This document shows, piece after piece, positions 8,202-25,548 of a stretch of 34,160 bases of DNA. Under the pieces are notes generated by a model that was not told the origin of the DNA, searched no databases, and saw nothing but the letters and a program-made list of their open reading frames with translations. Location: assembly GCA_028690485.1 (NCBI GenBank), contig JAQVBD010000014.1:1-34160 (forward strand). The letters run 5' to 3'. Made by a program: the position numbers and the translations under genes. Positions within the stretch are counted from its first letter, which is position 1; each line of letters opens with the position of its first letter. This DNA comes from Endomicrobiaceae bacterium (GTDB taxonomy: Bacteria; Elusimicrobiota; Endomicrobiia; Endomicrobiales; Endomicrobiaceae).

Positions 8202-8780
8202 TTATTTATTGTAGTAATTCCAAATATCAATGATATCCGGATGTAACACTTGAAACTTTGACACTACATAGTTTATTTTATTTTGCAAAACAAGTTTGAA
8301 AGCTTCATCTAAATTTGATAATAATTTTTTCTTACTTATAAATCTTATTTTAAATTTTCTATCAGGCGATAAAGAATCAGCTACAAAAATAATTTTTTCA
8401 CAATTTGACATATTTACTCTGCCGACAGTATGATTTTTTATTGCATTGAGAATTTCTATATTTGTTATTTTAAATTTATTTTTTGCAATATCTGCTGCAA
8501 TATATGAATGTAAAACTTGAGGAGCATATAAAGATAAAAAATCAAAGTATTTTATCTTTATATTTTTATCTAAAATATATCTTTTACTTTCTTTTAAAGA
8601 CATATCTTTTGCACAATCATGTAATAATGCTGCGATTTGAACATTATAAATATTTTCACTATAATGCATTGCTAATTTTTTTGCAAAATTATAAACGTAT
8701 ATAGTATGATTATACCGTTCTAGTGATAACTTTTTATAGATATAATCAAAAATATTACTTTCTAAATTTTTACCAATCAT
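8202..8780 (-). CDS. yqeK: YqeK-type HD-domain phosphohydrolase (predicted symmetrical Ap4A hydrolase)
   Basis: The 192-residue protein has every metal-binding position expected for YqeK: H25 (NHT), the HD pair H54/D55 in LLHDCAKD, H91 in LHSYIAADIA, H117 in NHTVG, and D135 in KIIFVADSLSPDR. YqeK enzymes split diadenosine tetraphosphate into two ADP. The gene normally follows nadD directly, but here a 4.2-kb pair of Bat-type genes lies between. Its start overlaps the end of the upstream giant coiled-coil gene by 11 bases, so it depends on that transcript and perhaps on its translation. Confidence 0.93.
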   Translation of the reverse strand: MIGKNLESNIFDYIYKKLSLERYNHTIYVYNFAKKLAMHYSENIYNVQIAALLHDCAKDMSLKESKRYILDKNIKIKYFDFLSLYAPQVLHSYIAADIAKNKFKITNIEILNAIKNHTVGRVNMSNCEKIIFVADSLSPDRKFKIRFISKKKLLSNLDEAFKLVLQNKINYVVSKFQVLHPDIIDIWNYYNK

Positions 8781-11700
8781 TTTTCACTTGTTCTTCTACA
8801 TCGGTTTTCTTAATATGTACTTGTTCTGAATTAGAATATGAAGATAGTATTCTATTTACATCAGTTTTTCTTAAAGTAGTTTTGTTATTAACAGATGACT
8901 CATCTTTCATTGCTGGTTTTTCCTTGTTTTTAGATTTGGTATTATCATCCATATTAACATTAGCTACTATCAAATCTGCTGATTGAATTACAGAAGATAT
9001 GTCGTTTTGAAGATTTGATTCTTTTCTTATAAGAAGTATTTTATCATCAATTTTTTTTGAATTTGCTACTAATACTTTCTTTTCTTTTTTTATATTTTTA
9101 ATTTCTGCTTTTATTTTCTTTATATCAACAGACACATCTAAATCATCATTTTTCAGAAAATCATCTAACATAATAATCTTTTCATTTAATAACTGTAATT
9201 TACGTTCTAAATTCGCTTTTTGTTCTTTATATATTTTTTCTTTGGCTTTTCTTTGTTTATTTTTTGTATTTTCAATACTTTCTTTTAAATATTTTGCAAA
9301 AGCAATATTTTCTTTTGATATATTAGAAATTTTTTCTAATTCTAATATTTTATTTTGCATATCTTTTGTCATAGAAGATTGCAATTCTTTCTTTAAGTTA
9401 GCAATGTGTTTTTTATTTGTACTTGATTCTATTTGTTTTGATAATTGTGTAATATATTCTAATTCTAATATTGCATTTATTATTTTCATTCTATATATTA
9501 ATTTATTAAATTCTCTCAATTGTCCAATAGAAGATTTATATACATATACTATAGCATTTCTCGTTTTATCATAACTTTTACTTTCTTCAAAATTGTCATA
9601 ATTTCCAACATTTTCCTTATGTTCAACATTATACTTTGTTTTATATAAAGATTGCATCATATCTCTTGTTAAATTTTTCTTAGTATTATCATTTTCAACA
9701 GTAAGATAATATTTGACTAATGAAAGCTGCTTATCTACTAAGTCTTTTTCTAACATATCTAATTCATGTTGTTCTGTTTCTGAAAATTGATCTGTTAAAT
9801 TTTGTAATTCTTGAATTTGTTTTGTTATTTCTCTTTCGCTAATTAATAAAGAATCTAACTGTTCTTTTTGATACAATGATTTAGCAATAAGAGTTTGTCC
9901 CTGTCCATTTATTAAACTATTTTGTCTAAAGACATCATTATTTGTTATATATTCTTTTTCTTTTTCAAATTTTATCATCTCTGATTCTAAATCCATTTTT
10001 CCATTAAAAAACTCTTCTTTTACCATTTCTTGTTCAAATTCATTTATTTTCACTATTTGTTTTAATATTGATTCGATTTTATTAACATTATTCTTCATTT
10101 TTTCTGATTTTTTATCAGCATCTACAATAAAAATTTTTATAAATTCTTTTATATTATTTAATAAGCTTAATTCTGTCTCTTTTAATTTTTCTTGTTTATA
10201 CACTTTATCTTTCTCTAAAGTTGCATTAGATTCTTTAAAGTTAATATACATATGTTGATTTTCTTTGAGATAAACTATTCTTTCTTGAATTTCTTGAATT
10301 TCTTTTAAAATAACATTCATTTTATCTTTCTTATCTTTTGCATACTCCTCTTTGTCCTTGAACAATGCCAATTGATTATCAAAATAAGTCTTATTATCAT
10401 ATAAATGATTCTTATTAAATTGAAAATTATTAAAATAAAATCTGTTTAAAAATATCTTAAAAATCATACTGATTTTATTTTTGCAATTTATTTGTATTTC
10501 TTTACATATTTGTTTTTGCTGTTTTAAAGTTATAATATGTTGCGATGAATCAGGAAGCAGATTGTTTATATTATTTAAAATTATCTTTTTTTCTACAAAT
10601 TTTTCAGATAACTTCAATTTAATAATAGACTTGAAAGATTCAAGATTGTTAATATTATCTATACTTTGTTCTGTTAACATATTATATAACAGATAAAGAT
10701 TAGAAATTTTATCCTTATACTTTAAAACTTTATTTTGTAATATAATATATTGATTATAATCTGTGTTTTTTGACAATTTTGTATAAAAATCATTACCTTC
10801 TCCTAAAGTGTTTGATAGTTCTTTTTCCAATACTGATATTTGTTCTAAAACTTTATTCATATTTTCATAATTTACAAATTGTTCTTGGATATATACATTA
10901 CCAATAAATGATATTGCTTCAATTAATTTAAATGCTAAAATTTTTTGTTCTTGTGCAGTAGTACCAGTCAACGTTTTATTAATAAAAACTAATAAATCAG
11001 TTATACTCAATAATATTTCGCTATGATTCTTCATGAAAGTTTCATATTGTAACTGATTAATTTTATATTCTGAATCTCTGACAAATAAAATATTCCTTTC
11101 TTCTTTGTCATCTAATTTGTTTCGATTATCTTTAAAAATAGAATTATATATTACTCTAAATTGTTCACTTTGATCATTGTACTTATCTGCAAAAGTTAAT
11201 AATAAACTCTCCAATTTTTGTCTTTGTTCTGCTTGTTTTTCAATATTTAAAACTTCTTTAATAATCCTATCTTTACAATTTTCAAACATATCTATATTTT
11301 TTCTTGATTCAATAAATTTTTTATAAACATGTTTTAATTTTTCATCTATTTCTTTAAAAATAGCATTAAGGTTTGGACTATTTTCACTGACTCCAACAAC
11401 AGATTTTTTATATAATATTTTTGAATCTTCTAATTTTTTATATTCAGCTTTTGATATTTCTGATAAATATTTTATTTTAAACAACATATCTTTAGAAATT
11501 TTGGAATATTCATTTTGATACTCTTTATTTTTTATTGAGACATCATCGTTAACTTTATATTCGAAATTATCCATATCATTAATAGATACGATTTGCTCTT
11601 CTATTTTTTTTCTAGGTAACAATAAAATTTCATTGTTATATATTATTGGTCTATTCATATACTCAATCATTTCTATATTAAATTTGATATCTTCATCTGC

Positions 11701-12081
11701 AGAATTTAGCAATAAAGCCATATAATAATTTTCTAATGCTTCTTCATAATTTTCATACATAAAAGCAATATTACCAATATTAAAATATATCTCTGATTTT
11801 AAAGAATTAGATATATCTGTATCTTTCAATAAATCCATATATATTTTTTTTGCTTCTTCATGATTATTAATTTTAAAATTTGCATTGGCTAAATTGTACT
11901 TTAAAATATTCTTTTGCCCTTTATATTTAATAGCATTCTTGAATTTCTTTATTGCTGGAACAATTTTGCCTTTTTCAAAATCAACAACAGCTAAATTATT
12001 ATTAATCTGTATGATATTTTTTTGAACAAACAAACTCAAAAACAAAAAGAATACTACTAATATTATTATATTTTTTTTCAT
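8770..12081 (-). CDS. Giant BatC-like TPR/coiled-coil protein C2 (paralogue of 16004-20695)
   Basis: The 1,103-residue protein has an N-terminal membrane anchor or signal (4-19), about three TPR repeats (30-140, with KSEIYFNIGNI and YEEALENYYMALLLN), then some 960 residues of Lys/Glu/Asn/Ile-rich helical sequence. It ends in a short tail with NRILSS and final NDW. The TPR head aligns along its whole length with that of the larger C1 protein, and both tails end in Asp-Trp. There is no Walker motif, so it is not an SMC or Rad50 ATPase. The predicted site is the periplasm, tethered to the inner membrane. It overlaps the P2 gene upstream (ATGA) and yqeK downstream (11 bases). The head resembles BatC of aerotolerance operons; the long insert has no function I recognise. 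Confidence 0.85.
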   Translation of the reverse strand: MKKNIIILVVFFLFLSLFVQKNIIQINNNLAVVDFEKGKIVPAIKKFKNAIKYKGQKNILKYNLANANFKINNHEEAKKIYMDLLKDTDISNSLKSEIYFNIGNIAFMYENYEEALENYYMALLLNSADEDIKFNIEMIEYMNRPIIYNNEILLLPRKKIEEQIVSINDMDNFEYKVNDDVSIKNKEYQNEYSKISKDMLFKIKYLSEISKAEYKKLEDSKILYKKSVVGVSENSPNLNAIFKEIDEKLKHVYKKFIESRKNIDMFENCKDRIIKEVLNIEKQAEQRQKLESLLLTFADKYNDQSEQFRVIYNSIFKDNRNKLDDKEERNILFVRDSEYKINQLQYETFMKNHSEILLSITDLLVFINKTLTGTTAQEQKILAFKLIEAISFIGNVYIQEQFVNYENMNKVLEQISVLEKELSNTLGEGNDFYTKLSKNTDYNQYIILQNKVLKYKDKISNLYLLYNMLTEQSIDNINNLESFKSIIKLKLSEKFVEKKIILNNINNLLPDSSQHIITLKQQKQICKEIQINCKNKISMIFKIFLNRFYFNNFQFNKNHLYDNKTYFDNQLALFKDKEEYAKDKKDKMNVILKEIQEIQERIVYLKENQHMYINFKESNATLEKDKVYKQEKLKETELSLLNNIKEFIKIFIVDADKKSEKMKNNVNKIESILKQIVKINEFEQEMVKEEFFNGKMDLESEMIKFEKEKEYITNNDVFRQNSLINGQGQTLIAKSLYQKEQLDSLLISEREITKQIQELQNLTDQFSETEQHELDMLEKDLVDKQLSLVKYYLTVENDNTKKNLTRDMMQSLYKTKYNVEHKENVGNYDNFEESKSYDKTRNAIVYVYKSSIGQLREFNKLIYRMKIINAILELEYITQLSKQIESSTNKKHIANLKKELQSSMTKDMQNKILELEKISNISKENIAFAKYLKESIENTKNKQRKAKEKIYKEQKANLERKLQLLNEKIIMLDDFLKNDDLDVSVDIKKIKAEIKNIKKEKKVLVANSKKIDDKILLIRKESNLQNDISSVIQSADLIVANVNMDDNTKSKNKEKPAMKDESSVNNKTTLRKTDVNRILSSYSNSEQVHIKKTDVEEQVKNDW

Positions 12082-12992
12082 ATTGTTGAACTCAATATTT
12101 TTTTATTTTGCACAGAATTTTTTACAATAGTATTAATATTTGCCAAATCAGTCTTAATGTTTTCTTCTGTCAATTTTAAATCAGAAGATTTAATACTTGA
12201 ACATTTTATCAACAAATTAGATAAACATTTTATTATACTAGCTGATAATTCAATTTTAGATATTTGCATTATAATACTATCTATTGTAAGTTTACTTGTA
12301 TTAATATTATACTCTATCCTAATAAAATTTTTAATTATATTTAACATAGCCTCATATCTTGAATTGATATCTAAATTATCATCATTTAGCATAATTGATT
12401 CTATTTGAAATAATATCTTGTATTTTATTTTATCTTTATCATTAACTGACATATTTGTATGCTTTTTCAAATAAATAATAATACTGAAAATTAAATATAA
12501 TCCGAACAAAAGAATGATGTAGTAATATAGTGACTCTATATTTAGAGTTTTAACAGGCTTTATATCTTTTAAATGTTTTTCATCAATATTATCCTTTAAA
12601 ACATCTGTAACTTTCACAGAAACAGAATTTGTACTGATAAAATGCTCTTTTTTTTGATCATCAAGATAAACGAAATTAACAACCGGTAATTCTTTTTGCA
12701 TTGGATTAAAAGTTGTAGCAAGTATATTGACAATATATATACTATGATTCATTTTATCTCTACTTACAGCTATATTTTTTACATACCAGTTAGGAATACA
12801 ATCATATTCCGGTCTAATAAGTTCATAATTTTTCGGTAACATAAACTTAAATTCTATATTAACATTATCACCTATAGTAAAATCTTTTTTATCCATACTG
12901 ACATTGACTTCAATTTCAGCAAATATCTTTGCTGAAAAAATCATTAATGATAAAAAAATTATAAGTAATACTTTATTTTTTATATAAATCAT
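12078..12992 (-). CDS. BatD-like/DUF4381-like single-pass membrane protein P2
   Basis: The 304-residue protein has a signal peptide (about 1-25, cleavage near IFA), a periplasmic beta-rich domain (26-145), LKDIKPVKTLN just before a membrane segment (155-175), and a cytoplasmic helical tail. This layout, and the K-D-I-K...K-T-L stretch before the membrane, is shared with P1 (22701-23642), so the two look paralogous. The start overlaps the end of nadD by 20 bases; the ATG gives a full signal peptide, while the next Met would cut it in half. The gene runs by ATGA into the giant C2 gene. By position it is a partner of the MoxR/Bat system, perhaps recognising or anchoring the coiled-coil protein; no specific activity is known to me. 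Confidence 0.75.
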   Translation of the reverse strand: MIYIKNKVLLIIFLSLMIFSAKIFAEIEVNVSMDKKDFTIGDNVNIEFKFMLPKNYELIRPEYDCIPNWYVKNIAVSRDKMNHSIYIVNILATTFNPMQKELPVVNFVYLDDQKKEHFISTNSVSVKVTDVLKDNIDEKHLKDIKPVKTLNIESLYYYIILLFGLYLIFSIIIYLKKHTNMSVNDKDKIKYKILFQIESIMLNDDNLDINSRYEAMLNIIKNFIRIEYNINTSKLTIDSIIMQISKIELSASIIKCLSNLLIKCSSIKSSDLKLTEENIKTDLANINTIVKNSVQNKKILSSTI

Positions 12993-13551
12993 ATTCTTTA
13001 ATATATTCTAAGACTTTCCCCGGTAATTTATTTTTTACATCTTGATTTTTTTTAAACATATTTCTTATCATAGTAGATGATGTATCTTGCGCTGTTAAAT
13101 ATGAAATATTTGCATATTCATAATAAATACTTTTTTTATCTATATCAATATTAGGCCGTTTTATAACAATAAATCCATACTTTTGTGCAATGTAATCAGG
13201 TTTTTTCCATGTATCTAATTGGTTAAAAGAATCTGATCCTATAATCAATTTAACTGTATCATTCGGATATTTTTTTTGCAAATAATCCAATGTTATATAT
13301 GTGTATACAACACTGCCAGTATTTATTTCAAAATCATCTATTATAAAATCTTTTCTATTTTCTAATGCTAGTAATAACATTTTATATCTATGCTTATCAG
13401 AAACCTCTAATTTGTTTTTGTGTGGTGGCAAATATGCAGGTACAAAGATAACAAAATCTAACTTAAACTCATTAATAGATTGACTAGCAATTTCTAAATG
13501 AACATTATGCACCGGGTCAAATGAACCACCTAAAACACCTATATTAGCCAT
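12973..13551 (-). CDS. nadD: Nicotinate-nucleotide adenylyltransferase
   Basis: The 192-residue product shows the nucleotidyltransferase motif GGSFDPVHNVH (residues 8-18), PPHK near 42-45, and SSTMIRN near the C-terminus, the second ATP-binding motif (I/S-S-S-T-x-I-R). NadD makes nicotinate adenine dinucleotide from NaMN and ATP, the penultimate step of NAD synthesis in the cytoplasm. It starts one base after batE stops and overlaps the P2 gene by 20 bases. Its common neighbours yqeK and rsfS are further down the same run, separated from it by P2 and C2. Confidence 0.97.
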   Translation of the reverse strand: MANIGVLGGSFDPVHNVHLEIASQSINEFKLDFVIFVPAYLPPHKNKLEVSDKHRYKMLLLALENRKDFIIDDFEINTGSVVYTYITLDYLQKKYPNDTVKLIIGSDSFNQLDTWKKPDYIAQKYGFIVIKRPNIDIDKKSIYYEYANISYLTAQDTSSTMIRNMFKKNQDVKNKLPGKVLEYIKEYDLYKK

Positions 13552-13552
13552 A

Positions 13553-14287
13553 TTATATTTTCTCTATAGAATTTTTATCAATCCATCCACTAAAGCCATC
13601 AACTGAAAGTTTAATATTAACCCATCTACCCAACTCAGATAATACAATAACTTTTCTACCAGCTAAAACTGAAAATGCCCCATCCTCATTTTTTATCGGC
13701 TTATTTTTTACTTGTGTATCTGATAAAACAATAGCTTCCTCTAATATAACTTCATTATAAGCCTTCAAACATAATAATCCCGCATTTAAAAAAAACAAAA
13801 CTAAACATATTATTGAAATATTTAAAAAAAATCTTTGCTGTTTTAAAAAATATATGCCAATACTTATACACAATATAATTGTTAACAAAAAAACTATTAT
13901 TACTAATTCATTTAATGAAAGTATTAACTGTAATTTACTAACAATATGTTCTGCAATATTTTGCTCAGGTTCACCAGATAGTTGTGCTATGAAATTTCTA
14001 TTGTACTGTATATCTTTATCTCTTGGAGCTAATCTTAAAGCCCTCTCTATATTCAAAGAAGCTCTGCCTATATCGTTATTTCTATAATAAGAATTTGATA
14101 AATTATAATAAATATAAGGATTATTAAATCCATTTAAAATCATAAGTTCATATTCTTTTATACTGTTTTCATAAACACCATTTTGATATGATTCCAAAGA
14201 TTGAGATAATTGTTCTTGTGTCGGAACATTAGCATAAATTGGAATCAAACTAAAAAACAATAAAAAAATAATTAAAACTTTATTCAT
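13553..14287 (-). CDS. batE: BatE-type TPR protein with C-terminal SH3-like domain
   Basis: The 244-residue product has a signal peptide (1-19), about two TPR repeats (25-100, with NNPYIYYNLSNSYYR and ERALRLAPRDKDIQYN), two membrane helices (about 127-148 and 155-175) and an SH3b-like domain (184-244, with LGRWVNIKL and GFSGWI). This is the BatE arrangement of Bat operons. The SH3-like domain probably faces the periplasm and may bind peptidoglycan or a partner. The start overlaps the batD stop as ATGA, so the two are coupled. In Bacteroides and Leptospira the Bat proteins are linked to stress tolerance; the molecular role is unsettled. Confidence 0.85.
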   Translation of the reverse strand: MNKVLIIFLLFFSLIPIYANVPTQEQLSQSLESYQNGVYENSIKEYELMILNGFNNPYIYYNLSNSYYRNNDIGRASLNIERALRLAPRDKDIQYNRNFIAQLSGEPEQNIAEHIVSKLQLILSLNELVIIVFLLTIILCISIGIYFLKQQRFFLNISIICLVLFFLNAGLLCLKAYNEVILEEAIVLSDTQVKNKPIKNEDGAFSVLAGRKVIVLSELGRWVNIKLSVDGFSGWIDKNSIEKI

Positions 14288-16002
14288 AGCACTTTATCCA
14301 ATTCTTCTATAATATATTTAGTATTCCTATACGTATCTTCCATTTGTAATTTAGTAGTTTTTATATAACTAAATTGAAACAACTCACAATCTATTAAAAT
14401 TTTTTCTATATCAATTACCAAACTTTCTGAAATTTGAAATTTATTAAGATTTGATTTTATCTCTTCTTTTATCATATTAATATAGTCAGAATTTGTACAA
14501 GACTGCAAAAAAATTCTGATGGAAAGATTTATGTTAAAATAGAACTTTTCTTGATTTTCTTCTTGCATAGACTTATAAGCTTCATGTAAGTACTTCAATG
14601 ATTTTTTGTAACCAGCTTTTTTTTGTAATTTTACAATATCTCTTTGCATATATAAAACCATAATACGATATACAAGTGAGTAAATAAGAAACATAAAAAA
14701 CGGTATTAATATAAAAACAAACATCTTGTTTTTAATCAACATATGATGATATTGTTTTAATTTTATATCACTTTTAATCGGCTGAATAGATTTATCAATA
14801 TTTTGAGTATCAACATCACTTTGTTTTACTTCAATATCTTTTACATATACACCAGATGATATGTTAACTTTAATATCGTCTGTCTTAATATTTACATATT
14901 CTTTTGAATCAGGATCAAAATAAGAAAAATAGACTCCCGGTATTGTTTTTTCACCTTCTATCAAAGGTATAATCACAGATTTAAATCTTTTCGAATTAGT
15001 AAATCCTTTACTTTTTGTATACACAGATGTTGCATATTTTTTCATATCTGTTGGCAACTTAATCTCAGGTTCTGAAATAGCATTAATATTACCATTACCT
15101 TCAATTTGTACTGTTAAACTTATTGGTTCATTAATCACAACTGATTTTTTATCTACTGATGCAACTATAGAATATTTACCTACAGCACCTGTAAAATTTT
15201 CAGGTTTTCCTATTTCTGGCAATGGAAAAACTCGAACTGTAACAGGATTCGAATTTAAAGAATATTTTATTTTCTTTGCATTAAGAATCTTATTGAATTC
15301 ATTATTATCAACATCATCATATTTTAAATATTCTACTTTTACATTAGATGGATCTATGATTACATTGCCATCCCTCATCGGATAAAGTTTTGTAATAACT
15401 TCAAAAACAAAATAATTTTCACCATCAATCAATTTATATCCACTTTTTGTATTAGATTCACTTTTCCAAAAATCTTTAAACATTGGCAAAAAATAAGTTG
15501 GATTGGAAGCCAGATCAAATTTCGTAGAAAATTTTAATGTGTAATATATTTGTTGATTTACATATATGGAATTTATATCTATATATGCTTCAACAAAAAT
15601 ATTTTCATTACTTTTATTAGTATATGATGATTTTTTAGATTGTAAATATTTGACAACTTTTACATTTATTGGCTCAGACGTTATTTCTTTATCTTTATCA
15701 TAAACAACTATAGATGGAATTGAAAAGAAACCAATATTTTTCGGTGTTATATCATATGTGTATATATTTTTATTTCCTTTCTTATAATTCTTTTTTGGTA
15801 AAACTATAAAATCAGGCATTTTTGGCAATTCAAATTTATCCAAATTTTCAATATCATTTGAAATTTCAACTGTTAATGTCAATAATTTACCAAGTTCGAC
15901 TTCTCTTTTGTTTAAGAAAACATTTAAAATATCATCAGCAAATAATACTGTTGATATGAATAATAACATAATTACTAATATATTTTTTTTAAATTCAAAC
16001 AT
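14284..16002 (-). CDS. batD: BatD-type membrane protein with periplasmic Ig-like domains
   Basis: The 572-residue product starts with a signal peptide (1-22), followed by a large beta-rich periplasmic part (25-420). FTGAVGKYSIVASVD at residues 270-284 and VQIEGNGNI at 298-306 are hallmarks of BatD. One membrane helix (427-450) leads to a helical cytoplasmic tail of about 120 residues. BatD forms part of the inner-membrane Bat complex with the von Willebrand proteins BatA and BatB. Here it begins one base after the giant C1 gene and overlaps batE by 4 bases. P1 and P2 look like shortened relatives of this layout. Confidence 0.9.
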   Translation of the reverse strand: MFEFKKNILVIMLLFISTVLFADDILNVFLNKREVELGKLLTLTVEISNDIENLDKFELPKMPDFIVLPKKNYKKGNKNIYTYDITPKNIGFFSIPSIVVYDKDKEITSEPINVKVVKYLQSKKSSYTNKSNENIFVEAYIDINSIYVNQQIYYTLKFSTKFDLASNPTYFLPMFKDFWKSESNTKSGYKLIDGENYFVFEVITKLYPMRDGNVIIDPSNVKVEYLKYDDVDNNEFNKILNAKKIKYSLNSNPVTVRVFPLPEIGKPENFTGAVGKYSIVASVDKKSVVINEPISLTVQIEGNGNINAISEPEIKLPTDMKKYATSVYTKSKGFTNSKRFKSVIIPLIEGEKTIPGVYFSYFDPDSKEYVNIKTDDIKVNISSGVYVKDIEVKQSDVDTQNIDKSIQPIKSDIKLKQYHHMLIKNKMFVFILIPFFMFLIYSLVYRIMVLYMQRDIVKLQKKAGYKKSLKYLHEAYKSMQEENQEKFYFNINLSIRIFLQSCTNSDYINMIKEEIKSNLNKFQISESLVIDIEKILIDCELFQFSYIKTTKLQMEDTYRNTKYIIEELDKVL

Positions 16003-16003
16003 T

Positions 16004-19000
16004 TTACCAATCTCTCTGATTTATATTTATTTCTTGATTATTTATTTTCTTTTCATTATTTGGCTTATCCATATCACCATAAAAATTTAGAACTCTTTCT
16101 AAATCTTGATCACCAATTTTTAAACCTTTATCAGTATTTTCTTCTTTTTCTTCTTTTTGTTCTTTAATACTTTCTTTATCTTCTTCATCTAATTCTTGTG
16201 CTTGCAACATTGATTTCTCAAGAAGTTCAGAAGTCTTATTTTTTTCATCATTTAACTTATTTTCTTCATCTTTTAATTTTTCTAACTTCCTTTTGTTTTT
16301 TTCAACATCATTTCCATATGTTTTAGATTCTTTTTCCATATTTTTATATTGCATATTTGCTTTATTTAAAGAATCATTACTTAATAATTTAGAATTATAC
16401 TGTTGTCTTGCTTCCATAGTTTTAACTAAATCTTTTTCTGTCATTTCCATTTTATTTTCTAAATTTTTACTTCTTTTATTCTCGTACTGTTTTTTCAAAT
16501 TTTCTAATTGTTTTTCTAATTCTTTTTGTTTTTTTAAGATTTCTTGCATTTGTTGTTTTTGAGCTCGTAAAATATCTTGCTGTTTTTTCAATTCTTTGCT
16601 AATTATAGATTTTTCATTATCCGCCCATTTTTTGCCCTGCTCATTTCTTTGTTTTTCTTTTTCAGCTTCCATTTGATCATTCTTATTAGTATCTATTTTT
16701 TTATCAATATTTTTCATTTGTTCTTGCATTTGTTTCATTTTTTTTCTTAATTCTTGCGATTTAGATAATTTTTGTAATTTTTTTTCTTCATTAAGTTTCT
16801 TATTCTTATCATCCATTTTACTATTTGTTTCTTCATTAAGTTTTTCTTTCAAACTATTTATGTTATATTCAATCATTTTTTGCTGTTGTTTAAGTTGATT
16901 ATTGGTTTTTCTGATTTCTTCTTGTTGCTTTTTCAATTCATTTATAGCTTCTTCTTCTTGTTGCTTTTTTGCCTTATTAGTATCTGATATATTTTTTGAA
17001 ATTTCTTCTTTTTTGCTTTTTTGCACATTGTTTTTTTCTAATTCAGTTAGTATATTTTCTTTTGTCTTATCTTTAGCGGTTGCTAATTTTTGTTTATTTA
17101 ACATTTCTTTTTTGTTATTATTTTCTTTAATAGATTCCATTAAAGTATCTTGTTGTTTTAACATGTTATTTAAATCTTCTATCTTTGTTTTGTTTTTATT
17201 TTCCAAAGTTTTTTTCATTTCTTCTTCTTTTTGTTTTAACTCTTTTTTGTTATTTTCTAACATTTTGTCTTTTTGTTTTAGTTCTTCAATCTTTTTTTGA
17301 GTTTCTAGTTTTTCTTGAACATTTTGTTTGAACGATTCTAAATCCTTCAACAAACCATTTTGCTCTTTTTTCAATTCACTTTGCTCTTGTTCTATTTTCT
17401 CTTTTTCCTTCATCATTGAATTAATATTTTTCTTTAAATTTATTTTATCTAAATTATTTAATTTTTTTTCTAAAGATTCAACATGTTCCTGCAAAACCTC
17501 TTTATTTTCAATATTTTTATTTTTTTGATCTTCCGTTATTTTCTTCACTCCATCATTTAAGCTATTTTCTTTTGAATTTTGCATTTTTTCATTCATATTT
17601 TGAAGGTTTTTATATAATTGTTTTGTATCTTGTATCATTTTTTCTCTTTTTTCTTTGTCCGTTTCCTGTGTCATTGTCTTTTTTAATAAATCTATCTGTT
17701 TTTCCGTTTGTTTTATTTGTTCATCCATTAATCTATTCTTTTGATTTTCTGAAACTTTTAATTCTTCTTCAATATGTTTATTAAAATCTTCTTCTAGTTG
17801 GGATTGTTTTTCTTCTATTTTTTTTAGTTTTTCATTTTTGTCTTGAGAGTTTTGCTTTTGTGCTTTTAACAAATCATATTTATTAATTTGTTTTTTCATT
17901 AAAAATTCATCTTCTTTCTTATTTTTCAAAGAGTCTTCTATAACCTGCATATTTTTAGCATGTTCTTCTTTAGCTAATAATTGTTCTTCTATCTTTTTTT
18001 GATTCTCTTCATTTTGATTCATAGTCTGTTTTTTAAAATCTTCAATTCTATTATTTTTCATTTTCTTCATTTCTTTCTTTTCGTCTTCTAACAATTGTTC
18101 TTTTTTACTTAACTGTTTTTCTTTTGCCTGTAATTCTTCTAATTTTTGTGCTGCATTTGCATCATTTTCACTTTTTGACTTTAATAAATTTTTTTCAATA
18201 TTTATATCCATTTTTGCTTTTGAAATATCTTTATGTTGCTTTTCTAAATCTTTATATTTATCTGCCATTGATTTTTCAATTTCTGCTTTTTTGGACATAT
18301 CTGAGACTTGCTTATCTATTTGTTGATTGTAATTTTCAAATTCTTCTATTTGTTTAGAACTTTGTTGCTGAGCTGAAGACAATAACTGTTCTTGCATTTT
18401 TGTTTTTGTTTTTTTATTTAAAGTTTCTTGTAATTGTTCTAATCTGTTTTTGTCTTGTTGAATATTATCAGCTTTTTTGTTTTCTTTTTCTTTCTCTTGT
18501 TCAAGAAAAGATTGATACTTATCAAATTCTTGTTTTTTTGTTATATCTTTCAATTTATTAATTTTTTCTGTTAATAAATCTATTTGTTTATTATATTGCT
18601 GAGATATAACTTCTTTTTGATCAACAGCCTGTTTTTGGAGCATCATTGTATTATCAATTTTTTGTTCATAATCCATAACTTTAGTTGTTACATCATTTAA
18701 ATCTTTACTGTTCTCTTTATTTAATAGTTCATCTTGTTTTTTGGATAACTCTGTTTGTTTTTGTTGAATATTTTCCAAGTATTCGGATGTTTTGTCCATT
18801 TTTTTTGTAGTTTTTAGCTGTTTATCCAATACATTGTCTTTAATATCTAACATATTTTTTTCAATATCTAAATTCATTTGTTGTTGTTTATTGTTTAACA
18901 TTTTAATATCACTTGAAACATCATGTAATTCTTGTTTAACAGATTGCTCTTTTTGTTCTAAATTTTTAATTTGATTTTTTAATTGCTCTTTTTGTTTTAA

Positions 19001-20695
19001 ATCATTAGTATTTTTCATATCATTTTGAATATTCTGTTTTTCTTTAGATATTTCAGTCAATGAATTTTGGATAGACTCTTGTTGTTGAGAAAGCTGATTG
19101 ATCTGTTGCATATTTGAATTAGCTATTTCTTGATTTACTTGATACATTTCATTTAATATATCTGACTGACTTTGAGTTTCTTTAGAAATTATTTCTTGCT
19201 TTTGTAAACTTATTTGTTGTAAAGCATTTCTTACATATTGATTATCTTTTTGTGTTTGAGAAAATTCTTGATTTTGCTCTTGTGCTTGTTGCTGCTGCTG
19301 TTCACTAGAAGCATCTCCATCTGTTTGATTATTAGTTTGACTACTTGAAGTAGATTTTATTATATCTTCATGTTCATATTTATATTTTGATTTTTGCTTT
19401 TTTGGATCAGATACAGCATTAGGATCATTATATATTATATCTTTTTGTTCTTCTGCCAAATCTTTTTCATTAGTATAATCTGTAGTATTAAGATTTCTAA
19501 TAATAGTGTCTTTTTCTTCTTCAATTAGAAATTTTTTCTCATCACTAAAAGTTTTTTTAAGATAAGCTTCTATTATTTTTTTTGGATTTACAACTTTTTC
19601 AGGTCTGACAACTTCTTGAACTATATCATCTTCAATTTTTTCAAAGATTTCAATTTTTTGATTTGTTTTAGCTACATTTTCATTTAATTTTTTTTGCAAC
19701 TCTTGTTTCTTACGTTCTAATTCTGAAGAATTCATAAGTTTTTGTTGTAAATTTAAGTTTGCTTTTTTCTTTTCTTCTTTTAATTCTTCTTTTTTTTCAT
19801 ATAATTGTTTGACATCCTGCTCTAATTGTCCTTTTTTAGATTGATTGATTTCTTGTGTCATTTCTTTCTTTAATAAATCTATTTGATTTTCTGTTTTTTT
19901 CAATTGTTGTTCAATTGCTCTTTGATTTTCATCATCTGCTTTTTTCCCGGACTTTTTTTGCAAACCTAAATTAACTTGATTTTTAATTTTTTCTTCAAGT
20001 TGTTTCTTTTGTTCCATAATTGTTTGCTTTTCAGTTAATAAATTTTGTAATTCATCTTTTATATTTTGAGTACTCTCTTGTTTTAAATCTTCAACTTTTT
20101 CTTGTAACTGTTTATTTTCTTCAATTTTACTCTGTTTTTCTGTAGATATTGTACTTAAATTTTCATTTATCTGTTCTTTCTTTTCCGTTATTTTTTCTTT
20201 TTGCTGAAGTAAATCATTTTTCATCTCTTTGATTAACTCTTCTAAATCTTCCATTTTTCTAAACATATTAGCAATATATTCAATATTAAATTTAGCATCA
20301 AGGTCATTAGGATTAAGAGTCAACGAATTTTTATAATACACCAATGCTTCTTCATAGTCTTCTTTAAGAAAATATATATTGCCTAAATTATAATAAATCT
20401 CCGATTTAAGCAATGAATCAATATTATTATTTTGTAACAATTTTTCATAAGTAGTAATAGCTTTATCATAATTTCCAAATTTTAACTCAGCATTTGCATA
20501 ATTAAATTTTAGAATATAATTTTTATCTTTTTTTAAAATGAGATTTTTAAATTTATTTAAAGCCCCTTTAAAATTTTCTACCTGAAAGTCTATTACTGCA
20601 TAATTATTTTCTTTTTTTATACTTATGATATTATGATATATAAATAGAATAAACAAACTTGATACAATTAATAATATAAACTTTAATTTAGTCAT
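16004..20695 (-). CDS. Giant BatC-like TPR/coiled-coil protein C1
   Basis: This 1,563-residue protein has an N-terminal membrane anchor (about 5-22), three TPR repeats (about 31-145, with KSEIYYNLGNI and NPNDLDAKFNIEYI, the typical BatC end of the TPR block), then about 1,400 residues of Gln/Lys/Glu/Asn helix and a tail with LERVLNF and final QRDW. No proline occurs between codons 19403 and 16063, about 1,110 residues, and I see no cysteine. A 37-residue segment recurs twice (near 19793-19902 and 17605-17715) with 21 identities. The start at 20695 has AGGGA upstream and overlaps batB by 8 bases. It occupies the batC slot between batB and batD. Ordinary BatC is a few hundred residues, so this is a huge expansion. 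No ATPase motif is present. Confidence 0.85.
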   Translation of the reverse strand: MTKLKFILLIVSSLFILFIYHNIISIKKENNYAVIDFQVENFKGALNKFKNLILKKDKNYILKFNYANAELKFGNYDKAITTYEKLLQNNNIDSLLKSEIYYNLGNIYFLKEDYEEALVYYKNSLTLNPNDLDAKFNIEYIANMFRKMEDLEELIKEMKNDLLQQKEKITEKKEQINENLSTISTEKQSKIEENKQLQEKVEDLKQESTQNIKDELQNLLTEKQTIMEQKKQLEEKIKNQVNLGLQKKSGKKADDENQRAIEQQLKKTENQIDLLKKEMTQEINQSKKGQLEQDVKQLYEKKEELKEEKKKANLNLQQKLMNSSELERKKQELQKKLNENVAKTNQKIEIFEKIEDDIVQEVVRPEKVVNPKKIIEAYLKKTFSDEKKFLIEEEKDTIIRNLNTTDYTNEKDLAEEQKDIIYNDPNAVSDPKKQKSKYKYEHEDIIKSTSSSQTNNQTDGDASSEQQQQQAQEQNQEFSQTQKDNQYVRNALQQISLQKQEIISKETQSQSDILNEMYQVNQEIANSNMQQINQLSQQQESIQNSLTEISKEKQNIQNDMKNTNDLKQKEQLKNQIKNLEQKEQSVKQELHDVSSDIKMLNNKQQQMNLDIEKNMLDIKDNVLDKQLKTTKKMDKTSEYLENIQQKQTELSKKQDELLNKENSKDLNDVTTKVMDYEQKIDNTMMLQKQAVDQKEVISQQYNKQIDLLTEKINKLKDITKKQEFDKYQSFLEQEKEKENKKADNIQQDKNRLEQLQETLNKKTKTKMQEQLLSSAQQQSSKQIEEFENYNQQIDKQVSDMSKKAEIEKSMADKYKDLEKQHKDISKAKMDINIEKNLLKSKSENDANAAQKLEELQAKEKQLSKKEQLLEDEKKEMKKMKNNRIEDFKKQTMNQNEENQKKIEEQLLAKEEHAKNMQVIEDSLKNKKEDEFLMKKQINKYDLLKAQKQNSQDKNEKLKKIEEKQSQLEEDFNKHIEEELKVSENQKNRLMDEQIKQTEKQIDLLKKTMTQETDKEKREKMIQDTKQLYKNLQNMNEKMQNSKENSLNDGVKKITEDQKNKNIENKEVLQEHVESLEKKLNNLDKINLKKNINSMMKEKEKIEQEQSELKKEQNGLLKDLESFKQNVQEKLETQKKIEELKQKDKMLENNKKELKQKEEEMKKTLENKNKTKIEDLNNMLKQQDTLMESIKENNNKKEMLNKQKLATAKDKTKENILTELEKNNVQKSKKEEISKNISDTNKAKKQQEEEAINELKKQQEEIRKTNNQLKQQQKMIEYNINSLKEKLNEETNSKMDDKNKKLNEEKKLQKLSKSQELRKKMKQMQEQMKNIDKKIDTNKNDQMEAEKEKQRNEQGKKWADNEKSIISKELKKQQDILRAQKQQMQEILKKQKELEKQLENLKKQYENKRSKNLENKMEMTEKDLVKTMEARQQYNSKLLSNDSLNKANMQYKNMEKESKTYGNDVEKNKRKLEKLKDEENKLNDEKNKTSELLEKSMLQAQELDEEDKESIKEQKEEKEENTDKGLKIGDQDLERVLNFYGDMDKPNNEKKINNQEININQRDW

Positions 20696-21689
20696 TATTT
20701 CCCTTTTTAAAAATTGGTAAATATAATGCAAAACAAAACAGAATAAAACCTATAAATAAAAATATCTGATATTTATCTTCTCTTTGAACTTCTTTACTGG
20801 CTTCATCTTTTGCCTTATCCAAAGAATGTGCTATTTGTAATATTTTAAATATAGAATCTTTACTTTCTGAAAGGTTAATATATTCTCCGCCTGTTTCATC
20901 TGCTATATATTGTAATGTATCCTCATCTAATTTTGTTATAACAACATTACCATTCTCATCTTTAATAAAATCTATATATCCTTGCTGATCTCTAATAGGG
21001 ATTTTAGAACCTTCCGGATTACCAATACCAATAGTATAAATTTTTGTTTTATATTTTTTTGCTTTTTCTATTAGAACATGTAATCCGCTGTCATCATCTT
21101 CTCCATCAGTCACCAAAATAATTGCTTTTGCACCTTCCGGGATATCTGCTGTTCCGTTTAATGCTAAATCTAAAGCTTTTGCTATTTTTGTTCCGCCTAA
21201 CGGCATATCATCTATACTAATTGATTTCAAGAAATTATTTGCTGAAAAAACATCTAATGTTATCGGACACTTCCAGAAAGCTGTTCCTGCAAAAGCTATT
21301 ATTCCAATTTTATTTCCATTAAATCCTGCTATTAAATTTGATAATACTAATTTAGATGTTTCCAGCCTATTTGGGTTTAAATCTTCTGCCAACATACTTT
21401 TTGAAACATCCATAACAATAACAATAGTGGCTGCTTTTTTTGATATAAGTGTAGTTTTCGCACCATATTGAGGTCTTGCCAATGCAATTATTATGAAAAT
21501 CAAAGATAAAATTATTAAAATATTTTTTAACTTATATATGCCAATATTTAGATTTGATATCTTGTTTAACATTTCGAAATCAACAAATTTAGAAATATTC
21601 TTTTTCTTCTTATAAAAGCAGTAAAGTAAAAATACTGCAATAACAGGAATAATAAATAATAAAATTAAAATTTCTCTATTTTCAAACAT
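20688..21689 (-). CDS. batB: BatB-type von Willebrand factor A membrane protein
   Basis: The 333-residue protein has two N-terminal membrane helices (about 8-26 and 54-70), a vWA domain (88-270) and a C-terminal helix. The metal-binding MIDAS site is complete: DVSKS at 94-98, GGT at 165-167 and TDGED at 194-198. NPNRLETSK and FAGTAFWKCPIT mark it as BatB rather than BatA. vWA domains bind partner proteins through a metal ion and commonly work with MoxR ATPases. It lies one base after batA and overlaps the giant C1 gene by 8 bases. Confidence 0.93.
   Translation of the reverse strand: MFENREILILLFIIPVIAVFLLYCFYKKKKNISKFVDFEMLNKISNLNIGIYKLKNILIILSLIFIIIALARPQYGAKTTLISKKAATIVIVMDVSKSMLAEDLNPNRLETSKLVLSNLIAGFNGNKIGIIAFAGTAFWKCPITLDVFSANNFLKSISIDDMPLGGTKIAKALDLALNGTADIPEGAKAIILVTDGEDDDSGLHVLIEKAKKYKTKIYTIGIGNPEGSKIPIRDQQGYIDFIKDENGNVVITKLDEDTLQYIADETGGEYINLSESKDSIFKILQIAHSLDKAKDEASKEVQREDKYQIFLFIGFILFCFALYLPIFKKGNND
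20700..20704 (-). promoter_or_regulatory. Ribosome binding site deciding the C1 start
   Basis: The minus strand reads AGGGA, 4 bases before the ATG at 20695. The earlier in-frame start at 20731 would overlap batB by 44 bases and put charged residues before the membrane anchor, so 20695 is preferred. Confidence 0.6.
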
Positions 21690-21690
21690 A

Positions 21691-22689
21691 TTATGTTAAC
21701 TTCCTTAAAAAAACATTCTCTAGTAAAATCTTTAATAACAACAAACAAAGCAAACACCAAACAAATTTATCAAAAATCTCTTCATAACTAGTGAAGTTTA
21801 ATGATTGTATTTCTGTTTTTTCTAATTTATCTATTTCTTTAATAATACTTTCTAACATTTTTGTATTATTTGCTCTAAAATACTGTCCACCAGTCATTTC
21901 TGCTATTGCAGTTAATGTATTTTCATCTAAATCCTGTTCTTCAACTTTTACTAATTTCATTCCTGAAACAGGATCCATAACTTGATAATATGCTCCTTCC
22001 GGATCACCTGCACCTATTGTATATATTTTTATTCCTAAACTTTTAGCTATTTCCCCTGCTGTTATGGGATCTACTTCTCCAATGTTATTTGCACCATCAG
22101 TAATAAGTATAATAAGTTTACTTTTTGCTTCACTATCTTTTAACCTGTTAGTAGCTGTAACTATTGCTGAACCTATTGCTGTTCCATCAACCGAACTCAT
22201 ATTTGTAGTTGCTGAATTTAAAAGTTTTGTAACACTATTTATATCATTAGTTAACGGTGATTGTGTAAATGCCAGTCCGGAAAATAACACCAATCCTATC
22301 CTATCATGTGTCCTTGTTTTTACAAAATCAACAGCAATTTTTTTTGCTGCCTCTAATCTATTAATAGGTTCAAAATCTAGTGCTTCCATACTTGATGATA
22401 TATCAAGAGCAATTACTATATCTGTCCCTTGGTTGAGAACATCTTCTGTTTTTTCTCCTATTTGAGGTCTTGCCAATGCAATTATAAATATAATTAATAT
22501 TAAATAATTAATTATATTTAATAATGGATATATCTTCATCTTTCTTGATTTTTTTATACCATTAACAACATCATATTGAGAAAAATTTATTAAGTTTTTT
22601 TTATTATATTTATTTTTTATATACAAAAAAAACATCAGAATTAATAGTATCGGAAACAATAAAAAGAATATTGGTGTAGCAAAATGCAT
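21691..22689 (-). CDS. batA: BatA-type von Willebrand factor A membrane protein
   Basis: The 332-residue product has membrane helices at about 5-24 and 55-72, a vWA domain (88-285) and a C-terminal helix. The MIDAS site is intact: DISSS at 96-100, the DGT Thr at 170, TDGAN at 197-201. INRLEAAKKIAVDF and FTQSPLTND are typical of BatA. It follows P1 by 11 bases and precedes batB by one. With BatB it likely forms the inner-membrane, metal-dependent adhesion core acted on by the MoxR ATPase. Confidence 0.93.
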   Translation of the reverse strand: MHFATPIFFLLFPILLILMFFLYIKNKYNKKNLINFSQYDVVNGIKKSRKMKIYPLLNIINYLILIIFIIALARPQIGEKTEDVLNQGTDIVIALDISSSMEALDFEPINRLEAAKKIAVDFVKTRTHDRIGLVLFSGLAFTQSPLTNDINSVTKLLNSATTNMSSVDGTAIGSAIVTATNRLKDSEAKSKLIILITDGANNIGEVDPITAGEIAKSLGIKIYTIGAGDPEGAYYQVMDPVSGMKLVKVEEQDLDENTLTAIAEMTGGQYFRANNTKMLESIIKEIDKLEKTEIQSLNFTSYEEIFDKFVWCLLCLLLLKILLENVFLRKLT

Positions 22690-22700
22690 TTATGATACTC

Positions 22701-23642
22701 CTATCTTGTATCTTTTTTATCGGAAACAGATTGATGATATTTCTCAACCGTTTTCTTCGTTCGTTTAAAAACATCTAAAAAAGTTTCCATATTCAACATA
22801 TAATCAGAATATTTAGCTTTATCATAACTTTCAAATAAATAATAAATTTCGCTGAAATATTGATTGAAAATATTGTTTTTATCCTGTAATGACAACAAAA
22901 GCTCTGTTGTTGTTATTTCTTTTTTTTTAAAATGCGAAGCATTTACAATAAATTTTTTAAATATATTGCTCACTAAAAAATAATATTCTTTTATCTGTTT
23001 TTTTGAACAACTTTCATCAATGTTCAGATTATTCAATTTTCTAATGGCAATTTCGTCAGGTGTAAAACTATTTAAATTAATTATATTTAATATTTTATCA
23101 TATAAAACAGTTCGATATGTAAAAAATATAACATATACCAAAAAAACAATCGCAATAATGTAATAGATAAATGTAATAGATAATGTTTTTGGATATTTAA
23201 TATCCTTTATTGACTTTAATTCATCACTATTAAAAGTACTTTTAACTCCCATCGGAATCGAATTACTAAAAAACAAGAATTTTTCGCCAGCATTATAGTC
23301 ATCCTTATTAATATATGAGAAACTAATTTGCGGTATTTCTTTTATGCTCGTATCAAATGTTGTTATATCCATATTAAGTATATATTTATCATTTTCAATT
23401 ACATCTTTTTTAAACGATAAATCTACAATATCCCAACCATCAATCAATATATCCCCTTCATCTTGTAATAACATAGCAAATGAAGGAATAAAAATTTCTA
23501 CTCTAACCTTTACTTTATCACCTGTTATTATATTGTTTTTGTCTGCAGTCAAAACAGCTTTTGGAAAAGTTACAAAAGAAAAAACATTGATAACACTAAA
23601 CAATACTATAAAAAAACTGAAAATTAATTTATATTTATTCAT
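22701..23642 (-). CDS. BatD-like/DUF4381-like single-pass membrane protein P1
   Basis: The 313-residue protein has a signal peptide (1-22), a periplasmic beta-rich domain (about 28-140), SIKDIKYPKTLS immediately before one membrane helix (156-175), and a cytoplasmic tail of about 135 residues. The tail has YYFLVSNIFKKFI followed by TTTELLLSL, the pattern seen in DUF4381-like proteins of MoxR operons. It starts 2 bases after the DUF58 gene and ends 11 before batA. P2 (12078-12992) has the same layout, so the two look like duplicates. The role is unassigned; a scaffold between the DUF58/MoxR side and the periplasmic Bat proteins would fit its topology. Confidence 0.75.
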   Translation of the reverse strand: MNKYKLIFSFFIVLFSVINVFSFVTFPKAVLTADKNNIITGDKVKVRVEIFIPSFAMLLQDEGDILIDGWDIVDLSFKKDVIENDKYILNMDITTFDTSIKEIPQISFSYINKDDYNAGEKFLFFSNSIPMGVKSTFNSDELKSIKDIKYPKTLSITFIYYIIAIVFLVYVIFFTYRTVLYDKILNIINLNSFTPDEIAIRKLNNLNIDESCSKKQIKEYYFLVSNIFKKFIVNASHFKKKEITTTELLLSLQDKNNIFNQYFSEIYYLFESYDKAKYSDYMLNMETFLDVFKRTKKTVEKYHQSVSDKKDTR

Positions 23643-23644
23643 TA

Positions 23645-24544
23645 TTATCCTAACATTTTTCTTTTTTGTCTGTTACTAAAAAATTTTACCAACTGAGGCA
23701 AATAAGAATCTCCTGTTTTTAAATTTATAATATCAACAGAAGATTTTTTAAATATCTCTTTTTTGTTATTTTCCAATTGTTCAATTCTATTATAATAAGA
23801 TTTCATCATTTTTTTACTTGACGAATCTATAGTAAAAACTTTATTATATTCAGCATCATAAAAATCTATCATACCAATATTAGGAATATCTTTTTCTCTA
23901 GGATCTGAAATATTAATACATATTAAATCATGTCTTTTAGATGTTAACATTAAATCTTTTTCATAACCTATATCTTTGAAATCAGAAACTAAAAAAACAA
24001 CTGCTTTTTTTCTCCATATTTCATTTATTGCTTTTAGACCTGTAGATATTGATGTTTTTATTCCTTTAGGCTTAAATGACAGTAATTCATTGACCATTCT
24101 TAAAATATTATTTTTACCTTTTTTAGGGCGTATAACATGTTCAATTGTATCCGTAAAGGATAACATTCCAACTCTATCATTATTTTTAATTGCAGAAAAA
24201 GCGAGAACAGATACTACCTCTGCAGCTAAAGATACCTTCGTCTGATTTAAACTTCCAAATGATTGGGATGCCGACATATCTATAAGGAAAACAACCGTCA
24301 TTTCTCTTTCTTCAGTAAAAACTTTTACATAAGGTTTCTGTTGTCTAGCTGTAACATTCCAATCTATAGTTCTAATATCATCACCATGCTGATATTCTCT
24401 GACCTCAGCAAATTCCATACCTCTACCTTTAAAGGTACTCTGATATTTTCCGCCTAGTCCTTCATTAACTAGACGATTAGAACGAATCTCTATTTGCCTT
24501 ATTTTCTTTTTGACAATATCTGATGAATTCATTTTTTTGTCCAT
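23645..24544 (-). CDS. DUF58-domain protein of the MoxR operon
   Basis: The 299-residue cytoplasmic protein carries the DUF58 signature between residues 40 and 67 (GRGMEF, then VREYQHGDDIRTIDWNVTAR). A vWA-like fold follows, with a DMSAS metal-site motif (89-93) and a VSDFKD segment. DUF58 proteins are nearly always encoded next to MoxR ATPases and are thought to be their adaptors or targets. It starts 5 bases after the moxR stop. A second Met at residue 5 is a possible start, as no clear ribosome site separates the two. Confidence 0.93.
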   Translation of the reverse strand: MDKKMNSSDIVKKKIRQIEIRSNRLVNEGLGGKYQSTFKGRGMEFAEVREYQHGDDIRTIDWNVTARQQKPYVKVFTEEREMTVVFLIDMSASQSFGSLNQTKVSLAAEVVSVLAFSAIKNNDRVGMLSFTDTIEHVIRPKKGKNNILRMVNELLSFKPKGIKTSISTGLKAINEIWRKKAVVFLVSDFKDIGYEKDLMLTSKRHDLICINISDPREKDIPNIGMIDFYDAEYNKVFTIDSSSKKMMKSYYNRIEQLENNKKEIFKKSSVDIINLKTGDSYLPQLVKFFSNRQKRKMLG

Positions 24545-24549
24545 AATAT

Positions 24550-25548
24550 TTAAGGTATTGGAACACCTTCAAATACTCTTCTTATAATATCATCTGTTTT
24601 TAAAGATTCTGCTTCTGCTTCATAACTAAGATGTATTCTATGTCTCAAAACATCTTGCCCTATTATTTTTACATCTTCTGGAATAACAAAACTTCTGCCT
24701 TGTAAAAAAGCATAAGCTTTTGATGCAAGAGTAAGATTAATTGTTGCTCTTGGAGAACCTCCAATAGCAATAAGAGATTTTAATTCATTTAATCCATATT
24801 CTTCCGGCTGCCTGGTAGCAAAAACGATATCAACAATGTAATCTTTTATTTTATCATCTACATATATTTCATGGACTAAATCTTTTGATTTCTGGACATC
24901 ATCTAAAGATAATACCGGATTTGTTTTTAGTTTAATTTTCTGTGTCATTCTTTCCAATATAATTTTTTCATCTTTAATATTTGGATAAACAACATTAAGT
25001 TTTAACATAAATCTATCTAATTGCGCTTCCGGTAAAGGATATGTTCCTTCCTGCTCTATCGGATTTTGTGTTGCCATAACTAAAAAAGGTGAAGGCAACA
25101 AATAGGTTGTATCACTAATTGTGACTTGTCTTTCAGCCATAGCTTCAAGGAGAGCACTTTGCACCTTAGCAGGAGATCTATTTATTTCATCTGCAAGAAC
25201 AATATTTGTAAAAATTGGACCTTTTTTAACTGAAAAAGTTCCATTTTGGGGATTATATATCAATGTTCCTATTAAATCAGCCGGTAATAAATCAGGTGTA
25301 AACTGAACTCTCTTAAAATCTGCTTGAATTGCATTTGCTAAAGAATTAACTGCTAAAGTTTTAGCAAGTCCCGGTAATCCCTCTAACAAAATATGCCCAT
25401 CAGCTAAAAGACCTATTAACATTCTTTCAACTACATATTTTTGACCAACTAAAACATTTCCTATTTCTTCAATAAGTTTTGCTATCGTAGAACTTTCCTG
25501 CTTTATCTTATCATCTAACTCATCAATATTTATTTTTTCTTCCATCAT
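24550..25548 (-). CDS. moxR: MoxR-family AAA+ ATPase
   Basis: The 332-residue ATPase has Walker A GLPGLAKT (57-64), Walker B IVLADE (116-121) followed by NRSPAKVQ, sensor-1 TQNPIEQEGT (160-169) and the PEAQLDRFMLKL segment with the arginine finger, plus the C-terminal lid. MoxR proteins are chaperone-like ATPases that remodel or activate partners carrying vWA domains, here likely BatA/BatB. The start is either of two adjacent ATGs (25548 or 25545) behind AGGGGG; the second has better spacing. It leads the Bat block, 23 bases after proA, with DUF58 directly downstream. Confidence 0.96.
   Translation of the reverse strand: MMEEKINIDELDDKIKQESSTIAKLIEEIGNVLVGQKYVVERMLIGLLADGHILLEGLPGLAKTLAVNSLANAIQADFKRVQFTPDLLPADLIGTLIYNPQNGTFSVKKGPIFTNIVLADEINRSPAKVQSALLEAMAERQVTISDTTYLLPSPFLVMATQNPIEQEGTYPLPEAQLDRFMLKLNVVYPNIKDEKIILERMTQKIKLKTNPVLSLDDVQKSKDLVHEIYVDDKIKDYIVDIVFATRQPEEYGLNELKSLIAIGGSPRATINLTLASKAYAFLQGRSFVIPEDVKIIGQDVLRHRIHLSYEAEAESLKTDDIIRRVFEGVPIP

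Follow-up and report, generated by a model that had tools for sequence, protein, structure and literature searches.

Giant BatC proteins with conserved helical inserts in a Bat operon of Endomicrobiaceae

The stretch of DNA analysed here (the window) comprises positions 1 to 34,160 of contig JAQVBD010000014.1 (G000:C87), from assembly GCA_028690485.1 of an Endomicrobiaceae bacterium whose genome of 1.63 Mb is 96% complete. Its minus strand carries an operon of the Bat (Bacteroides aerotolerance) system, with two giant relatives of the component BatC, here called C1 and C2. In order, the minus strand encodes a MoxR AAA+ ATPase (24550..25548; PF07726, 4e-65), a DUF58 protein (23645..24544; PF01882, 2e-67), Y313, a small membrane protein of the Bat operon (22701..23642), the VWA proteins BatA (21691..22689, with a PF07584 N-terminus) and BatB (20688..21689), C1 (16004..20695), BatD (14284..16002; PF13584, 1.7e-25), a BatE-like protein with TPR, transmembrane and SH3 parts (13553..14287), nadD, X304 (12078..12992), C2 (8770..12081), yqeK, lytR and rsfS. 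C1, with 1,563 amino acids (aa) and an ATG start at 20695, occupies the BatC slot between BatB and BatD. C2, a paralogue of 1,103 aa, sits outside that slot, between yqeK and X304, which is itself a paralogue of Y313 (31% identity, E 2e-16).

A BatC protein is customarily, though not by definition, about 200-500 aa long. The 75 ordinary BatCs collected for comparison span 219-492 aa: 225-492 in 49 from other phyla, 257-467 in 16 from the window's type of operon (operon A) in other Endomicrobiaceae, and 219-283 in 10 from a second Bat operon (operon B). On a log scale C1 and C2 lie 9.0 and 7.2 standard deviations above their mean. The congeneric genome G061 has collinear orthologues of both, of 1,507 and 1,104 aa, at 64-67% identity, and in another genus (G063 and G064) C1 measures 1,457 and 1,469 aa and can be aligned end to end at 36-41% identity. 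In a third genus (G070) the contig starts inside the gene and the reading frame is broken at its edge; what remains is the C-terminal 1,597 aa of C1, which puts the full length probably near 1,950 aa. The giant C1 is known, then, from four complete copies (1,457-1,563 aa) and this partial one, while in G074 and G075 the gene is interrupted by contig ends. Since orthologues of giant size occur in independent assemblies, the lengths are real and are not assembly errors. Judged from these full-length orthologues and from substitution rates, both inserts are translated and under purifying selection: between G000 and G061 the nonsynonymous rate (dN) of the inserts is 0.16-0.34 with the synonymous rate (dS) saturated, similar to the neighbours nadD and yqeK, and dN/dS is well under 1 wherever dS could be estimated.

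A preliminary description of this stretch had taken C1 and C2 to be paralogous BatC proteins, each with an N-terminal anchor, a collinear TPR head, a short tail and, between head and tail, a hugely enlarged linker. Both frames do have the anchor, as one hydrophobic segment at the N-terminus and none elsewhere. No AxA-like site follows that segment, and it is for this reason taken to be uncleaved in both proteins. Paralogy and collinearity of the heads were also borne out. The anchor and head of C1 (residues 1-150; 20246..20695) match Pfam TPR_1 at 2e-12, and those of C2 (residues 1-150; 11632..12081) share 48% identity with C1 across about 143 aa (E 1e-27; hhalign 99.4%), the motifs singled out earlier reading NNYAVIDF and KSEIYYNLGNI in C1 and NNLAVVDF and KSEIYFNIGNI in C2. 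A profile built from ordinary (canonical) BatC heads finds C1 at 3.9e-30 and C2 at 1.9e-27, so these are not the heads of unrelated TPR proteins. Furthermore, the sole NCBIfam match of C1 is the BatC model NF047507 (2e-17). Its 63 bits fall under the 175-bit cut-off, as do the scores of ordinary BatCs (39-66 bits), the model being Leptospira-specific; C2 had no match to this Leptospira-specific model. The position of C1 in the batB-batD slot downstream of moxR recurs in all four complete copies (G000, G061, G063 and G064).

The C-terminus adds a further, independent signature. In other phyla, W is the last residue of 47 of the 49 slot proteins that follow BatB, usually within KDW or KNW, against a background of 27 in 1,199 other open reading frames (ORFs); of the two exceptions, one is at a contig end and the other is a split ORF. 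The tail of these slot proteins reads SKEDAERLLEAL..DEKKTQEK...K[DN]W, a pattern to which C1 (KIGDQDLERVLNFYGDMDK...QRDW) and C2 (KTDVNRILSSYSNSEQ...KNDW) conform. The C1 tail (residues 1526-1563; 16007..16120) contains DLERVL...QRDW, and that of C2 (residues 1070-1103, TDVNRILSSYSNSEQ...KNDW; 8773..8874) contains DVNRIL...KNDW. In AlphaFold's model of C1 a separate 12-residue helix covers residues 1529-1540, exactly over the tail motif DLERVLNFYG. Each tail was shuffled 1,000 times, with the final two residues held fixed, and scored with a family-wide profile. The score of the C1 tail was equalled by 5 of 1,000 shuffles (2-24 over the range of C1 tails), that of C2 was reached by 17 and 9 of 1,000 (17 with the ends fixed), and that of the G061 orthologue of C2 by none of 1,000. 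With a profile of Endomicrobiaceae tails, C1 exceeds all 3,000 shuffles; the operon B tail profile by itself does not recognise the giant tails. The universal [DN]W that follows the short helix resembles a docking motif.

Head profile and NCBIfam match, operon slot and tail pattern together make C1 almost certainly an enlarged BatC, and C2 is very probably one too; the idea of a BatC with a hugely enlarged linker is supported by head, tail and C1 slot alike. That C1 and C2 might instead be unrelated TPR coiled-coil proteins that came to lie in a Bat operon by chance, or artefacts of assembly, could be argued from the commonness of TPRs and from the slot of C2, which is not that of BatC. Tail homology, the C1 slot, the NCBIfam BatC match and the orthologues in independent assemblies largely refute this explanation, which I consider scarcely credible. 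The conditions that the preliminary description had named as its own refutation (unrelated heads, tails that do not align, lengths due to faulty assembly) were checked and did not apply.

The giant insert of C1 (residues 151-1515; 16151..20245) appears from its periodicity, conservation, selection and modelling to be a series of amphipathic helices. It is rich in K (20%), E (15%) and Q (12%), as the preliminary description had it for both inserts, is 23% hydrophobic, and has only 12 Pro or Gly within 1,368 aa. Its hydrophobic residues recur with a period of 3.5-3.6 (z 8.9 near 3.6 against shuffles), and the alignment with three other genomes shows conservation along the full length. Within it lies a conserved island at residues 350-450 (QEVVRPEKVVNPKKII ... 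KSKYKYEHEDII; 19346..19648) that is not coiled-coil-like and has weak periodicity (z 2.1). Among 150 genomes of the phylum the island is confined to C1 orthologues, and I was unable to find a Pfam or PDB relative of it. A PADLOC match of C1 to Csm3 (5e-5, residues 1047-1180) was judged a composition artefact.

AlphaFold, run on C1 residues 487-1563 with five sequences (mean predicted local distance difference test score, pLDDT, 61, about 54-76; predicted template modelling score, pTM, 0.24), gives, at low to moderate confidence, 88% helix, in successive helices of 75, 89, 49, 120, 102, 58, 30, 36, 119, 194 and 64 residues with breaks at N/D/S/T-rich turns. A single helix of the whole insert would measure 205 nm. 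Owing to the helix breaks (predicted helices of 30-194 residues) and to the non-periodic island, one rod of about 200 nm, as first envisaged, is unlikely, and the other option put forward then, folding into bundles, fits better: helices of about 5-30 nm, folded back on one another, would suit the periplasm better than one rod.

Two stretches of the C1 insert resemble each other. Residues 263-315 (53 aa; 19751..19909), which are missing from the orthologues, match residues 992-1044 (17564..17722) with a Smith-Waterman score of 128 against a maximum of 95 in 1,000 shuffles, and the latter, source-type copy covers a predicted helix-turn-helix. The C1 of G070 contains a 216-bp tandem repeat of 2.7 copies. 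On the basis of these copies and of the tandem repeat, the insert would seem to lengthen through duplication of helical-hairpin units. When compared with themselves by BLAST, neither C1 nor C2 showed internal repeats at E 0.1; the C1 copies emerged from the targeted Smith-Waterman comparison. The 72-aa repeat of G070 aligns best with C1 residues 990-1052, but shuffles score up to 105 and the repeat only 94, which makes the link between them positional only.

These features bear on two other explanations. The helices of C1 might pair between molecules, forming a self-assembling periplasmic filament or mesh, an envelope structural element that the Bat machine assembles or anchors. The helices are long, amphipathic and Q/K/E-rich, and their length as one helix is well beyond the depth of one periplasm. 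However, the turn-like N/D/S/T breaks and the duplicated hairpin unit favour intramolecular folding, and the C2 insert is no simple coiled coil, so I regard a filament as unlikely. Alternatively, a flexible linker may have drifted in length, neutrally or under weak constraint, and acquired no new function. Ordinary linkers already range from about 30 to 270 aa, internal duplications occur, and the insert designated A evolves faster than the head. Against drift stand the collinear full-length conservation at 36-41% between genera, the strong conservation of the island, the low dN/dS, and the retention of 1,457-1,563 aa in four complete copies, which together leave it distinctly improbable.

The insert of C2 (residues 151-1060; 8902..11631) is of another kind. 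It departs from the earlier Gln/Lys/Glu-rich description in being K/I/L/E/N-rich and 36% hydrophobic, against 23% in C1, and its periodicity is clear at residues 151-330 alone (z 5.8; 0.7-2.4 elsewhere). AlphaFold, given two sequences, predicts helix over 83% of it, and helix content is all that was taken from that model (pLDDT 36, pTM 0.25). Residues 240-360 (11002..11364) resemble the C1 island with a Smith-Waterman score of 92 against a shuffle maximum of 79 in 1,000, a match weaker than these values suggest because the subregion was chosen; with the full profiles of the two proteins, hhalign aligned nothing but the heads, leaving the island likeness unreported. This likeness suggests that C2 was copied from a C1 that was already enlarged. 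The X304-C2 pair occurs between nadD and yqeK in genus g1 only, and nadD adjoins yqeK in G063, G064 and G070. Given this distribution and the paralogy of X304 and Y313, C2 evidently arose later than C1, in a single genus, through a duplication that it shared with X304.

Giant BatC is restricted, as far as sampled, to one lineage, a small set of gut bacteria; the surveys that follow are genome samples and not a census. Among the strong matches of a head search over 251 Elusimicrobiota genomes, every other frame stayed at or below about 640 aa, and head-matching frames reached at most 631 aa in 148 genomes of the Bacteroidota group and 624 aa in 118 of the Planctomycetota group. Some ORFs of 3,000 aa in the phylum search matched in the TPR part alone, with E no better than about 1e-25, belong to other families and were judged unrelated TPR proteins. 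Literature searches found nothing on giant BatC. The survey of relatives for BatC length, which the preliminary description had proposed as a check, thus places the giants in one lineage, with 219-492 aa in the other BatCs measured.

In a tree built on MoxR, DUF58 and BatA (the operon tree), the operon A copies of g1 and g12, the genera with giants, are sister to the ordinary Bat operon found in the remaining Endomicrobiaceae (support 100). A separate clade is formed by operon B of g1, g12 and g13. The closest named record to the MoxR of the window, an Endomicrobium metagenome-assembled genome (71%), groups inside the window's own family. In the window genome operon B lies at L007:8555-17106 (G000:C112) and reads MoxR-DUF58-Sel1-Y-BatA-BatB-BatC-BatD, with a BatC of 229 aa that ends in NW. 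All giants (G000, G061, G063, G064 and, in part, G070) are found in genomes that carry both operons, as G074 and G075 also do, and BatC is ordinary both in genomes with operon A alone and in genomes with operon B alone. Because the five genomes belong to one clade, the giants count as one evolutionary event and not five. That these genomes also carry an ordinary Bat operon suggests that the usual task passed to operon B, which allowed operon A to acquire a new role. The giant BatC is real and conserved, and the second operon is a built-in control for its role.

The survey also turned up other variation in Bat loci. The Sel1-repeat protein of operon B (L007:13896-15146; L155, L156, L157, L161) has 385-912 aa in full copies, and is another Bat-operon part variable in repeat length. 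Near the operon B BatD of G069 and G074 (L157, L163) are ORFs of 2,346 and 2,405 aa with no match in the Bat reference set. The operon A MoxR of G075 (L174:118-906; G075:C53) is shortened to 262 aa and altered at its C-terminus near the contig start, reflecting either decay or an assembly error. In a reduced relative (L168; G041:C18:56000-62318) the Bat operon is split into short frames with many stops, and several small Endomicrobiaceae genomes have no MoxR match whatever, which together indicate that the Bat system is being lost in the reduced lineage. Elsewhere in the window, 28985-32197 encodes a protein of 1,070 aa for which Pfam gave no match at 0.001, and 32233-33645 a 470-aa membrane protein with weak GDSL-lipase and TPR matches, under the cut-offs.

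What might such proteins do? My preferred proposal, to which I give roughly an even chance, is that C1 and C2 are neofunctionalised BatCs that act as a long periplasmic tether or scaffold between the partners of the head and those of the tail. The linker between TPR head and docking tail would have become a helical spacer of 900-1,400 residues. Given the uncleaved N-terminal helix, both proteins are expected to be anchored in the inner membrane with the remainder in the periplasm, facing the VWA domains of BatA and BatB. Supporting this, the VWA domain of BB0173, a Bat-type protein of Borrelia, was shown to face the periplasm (PMC5700661), and a single complex built by Bat proteins through their vWF and TPR domains has been proposed (PMC3557215). 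The head would dock on the BatA/BatB complex (possibly with BatD and BatE) and the [DN]W tail would bind a partner, while the insert, probably hairpin bundles of about 5-30 nm, would set the distance and order of the two sets of partners, holding them at a larger, defined separation. By analogy with other MoxR-VWA pairs, MoxR would presumably power the complex from its cytoplasmic side.

Several points weigh against this proposal. The tail of C2 is the weakest link in its identity: although both tails fit the BatC pattern, the D-x-x-R-(V/I)-L...DW likeness first described as shared is less sure for C2, which gave p 0.08 in a direct pairwise test against C1, did not rise above shuffles with the narrower Endomicrobiaceae profile, and convinces only with the family-wide one, where the statistic is modest. 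The C2 insert has weaker coiled-coil periodicity than that of C1 and, being 36% hydrophobic and periodic only at residues 151-330, may be a folded helical domain instead of a spacer. AlphaFold's global folds are of low confidence, as their pTM values indicate, and searching the PDB by sequence turned up neither a BatC structure nor one of a Bat complex. Finally, the periplasmic location is deduced from the anchor and homologues only.

C1 and C2 might also be chiefly clients or substrates that the MoxR-VWA machine exports or remodels, for example surface or adhesive proteins, and not its tethers. Remodelling of a client is what MoxR-VWA pairs like NorQ/NorD carry out (PMC9976466), and the insert is the variable part; yet head and tail are those of the ordinary BatC component and C1 retains an uncleaved anchor, which makes this quite improbable. 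A bolder proposal, that in the Endomicrobiaceae lineage with two Bat operons one Bat machine has come to anchor and assemble a periplasmic scaffold of giant BatC rods growing by hairpin duplication, with C1 and C2 as non-equivalent subunits, is speculative and I would not expect it to hold.

The Bat system occurs in Bacteroidota, Spirochaetes, Planctomycetes, Elusimicrobiota and others. TolA and Omp-alpha, periplasm-spanning coiled-coil proteins much shorter than C1 and C2, also have a helical spacer that is anchored in the membrane and links a pair of binding modules. In NorQ-NorD and RavA-ViaA a MoxR AAA+ protein and its VWA partner likewise form the motor unit, so that they work alike without being members of the Bat system; they do so without BatC, BatD or BatE, and the available parts of the sources describe no giant helical component (PMC9976466, PMC10848872). 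The closest likeness is to the BatC of the Bat operon itself (NF047507, TPR_BatC_Lepto), with which the giants share the signal or anchor, TPR head, charged linker, tail helix and terminal [DN]W, and C1 also the setting between BatB and BatD, downstream of MoxR-DUF58-BatA. They differ in that the ordinary linker is short and poorly hydrophobic, whereas the inserts are 900-1,400 aa long, 23-36% hydrophobic and conserved in sequence, and in that C2 lies outside the slot. The operon B BatC differs from the giants in turn: its size is normal, its signal peptide looks cleavable, and its operon falls in a separate clade of the operon tree. Together these proteins form a natural series in which BatC keeps both ends while its middle is stretched four- to sixfold, next to an unchanged control operon in the same cell. 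In this way the conserved docking parts (TPR head, tail helix and [DN]W) can be told apart from the spacer and put to the test, and the C-terminal [DN]W offers a precise short linear motif with which to look for the partners of BatC.

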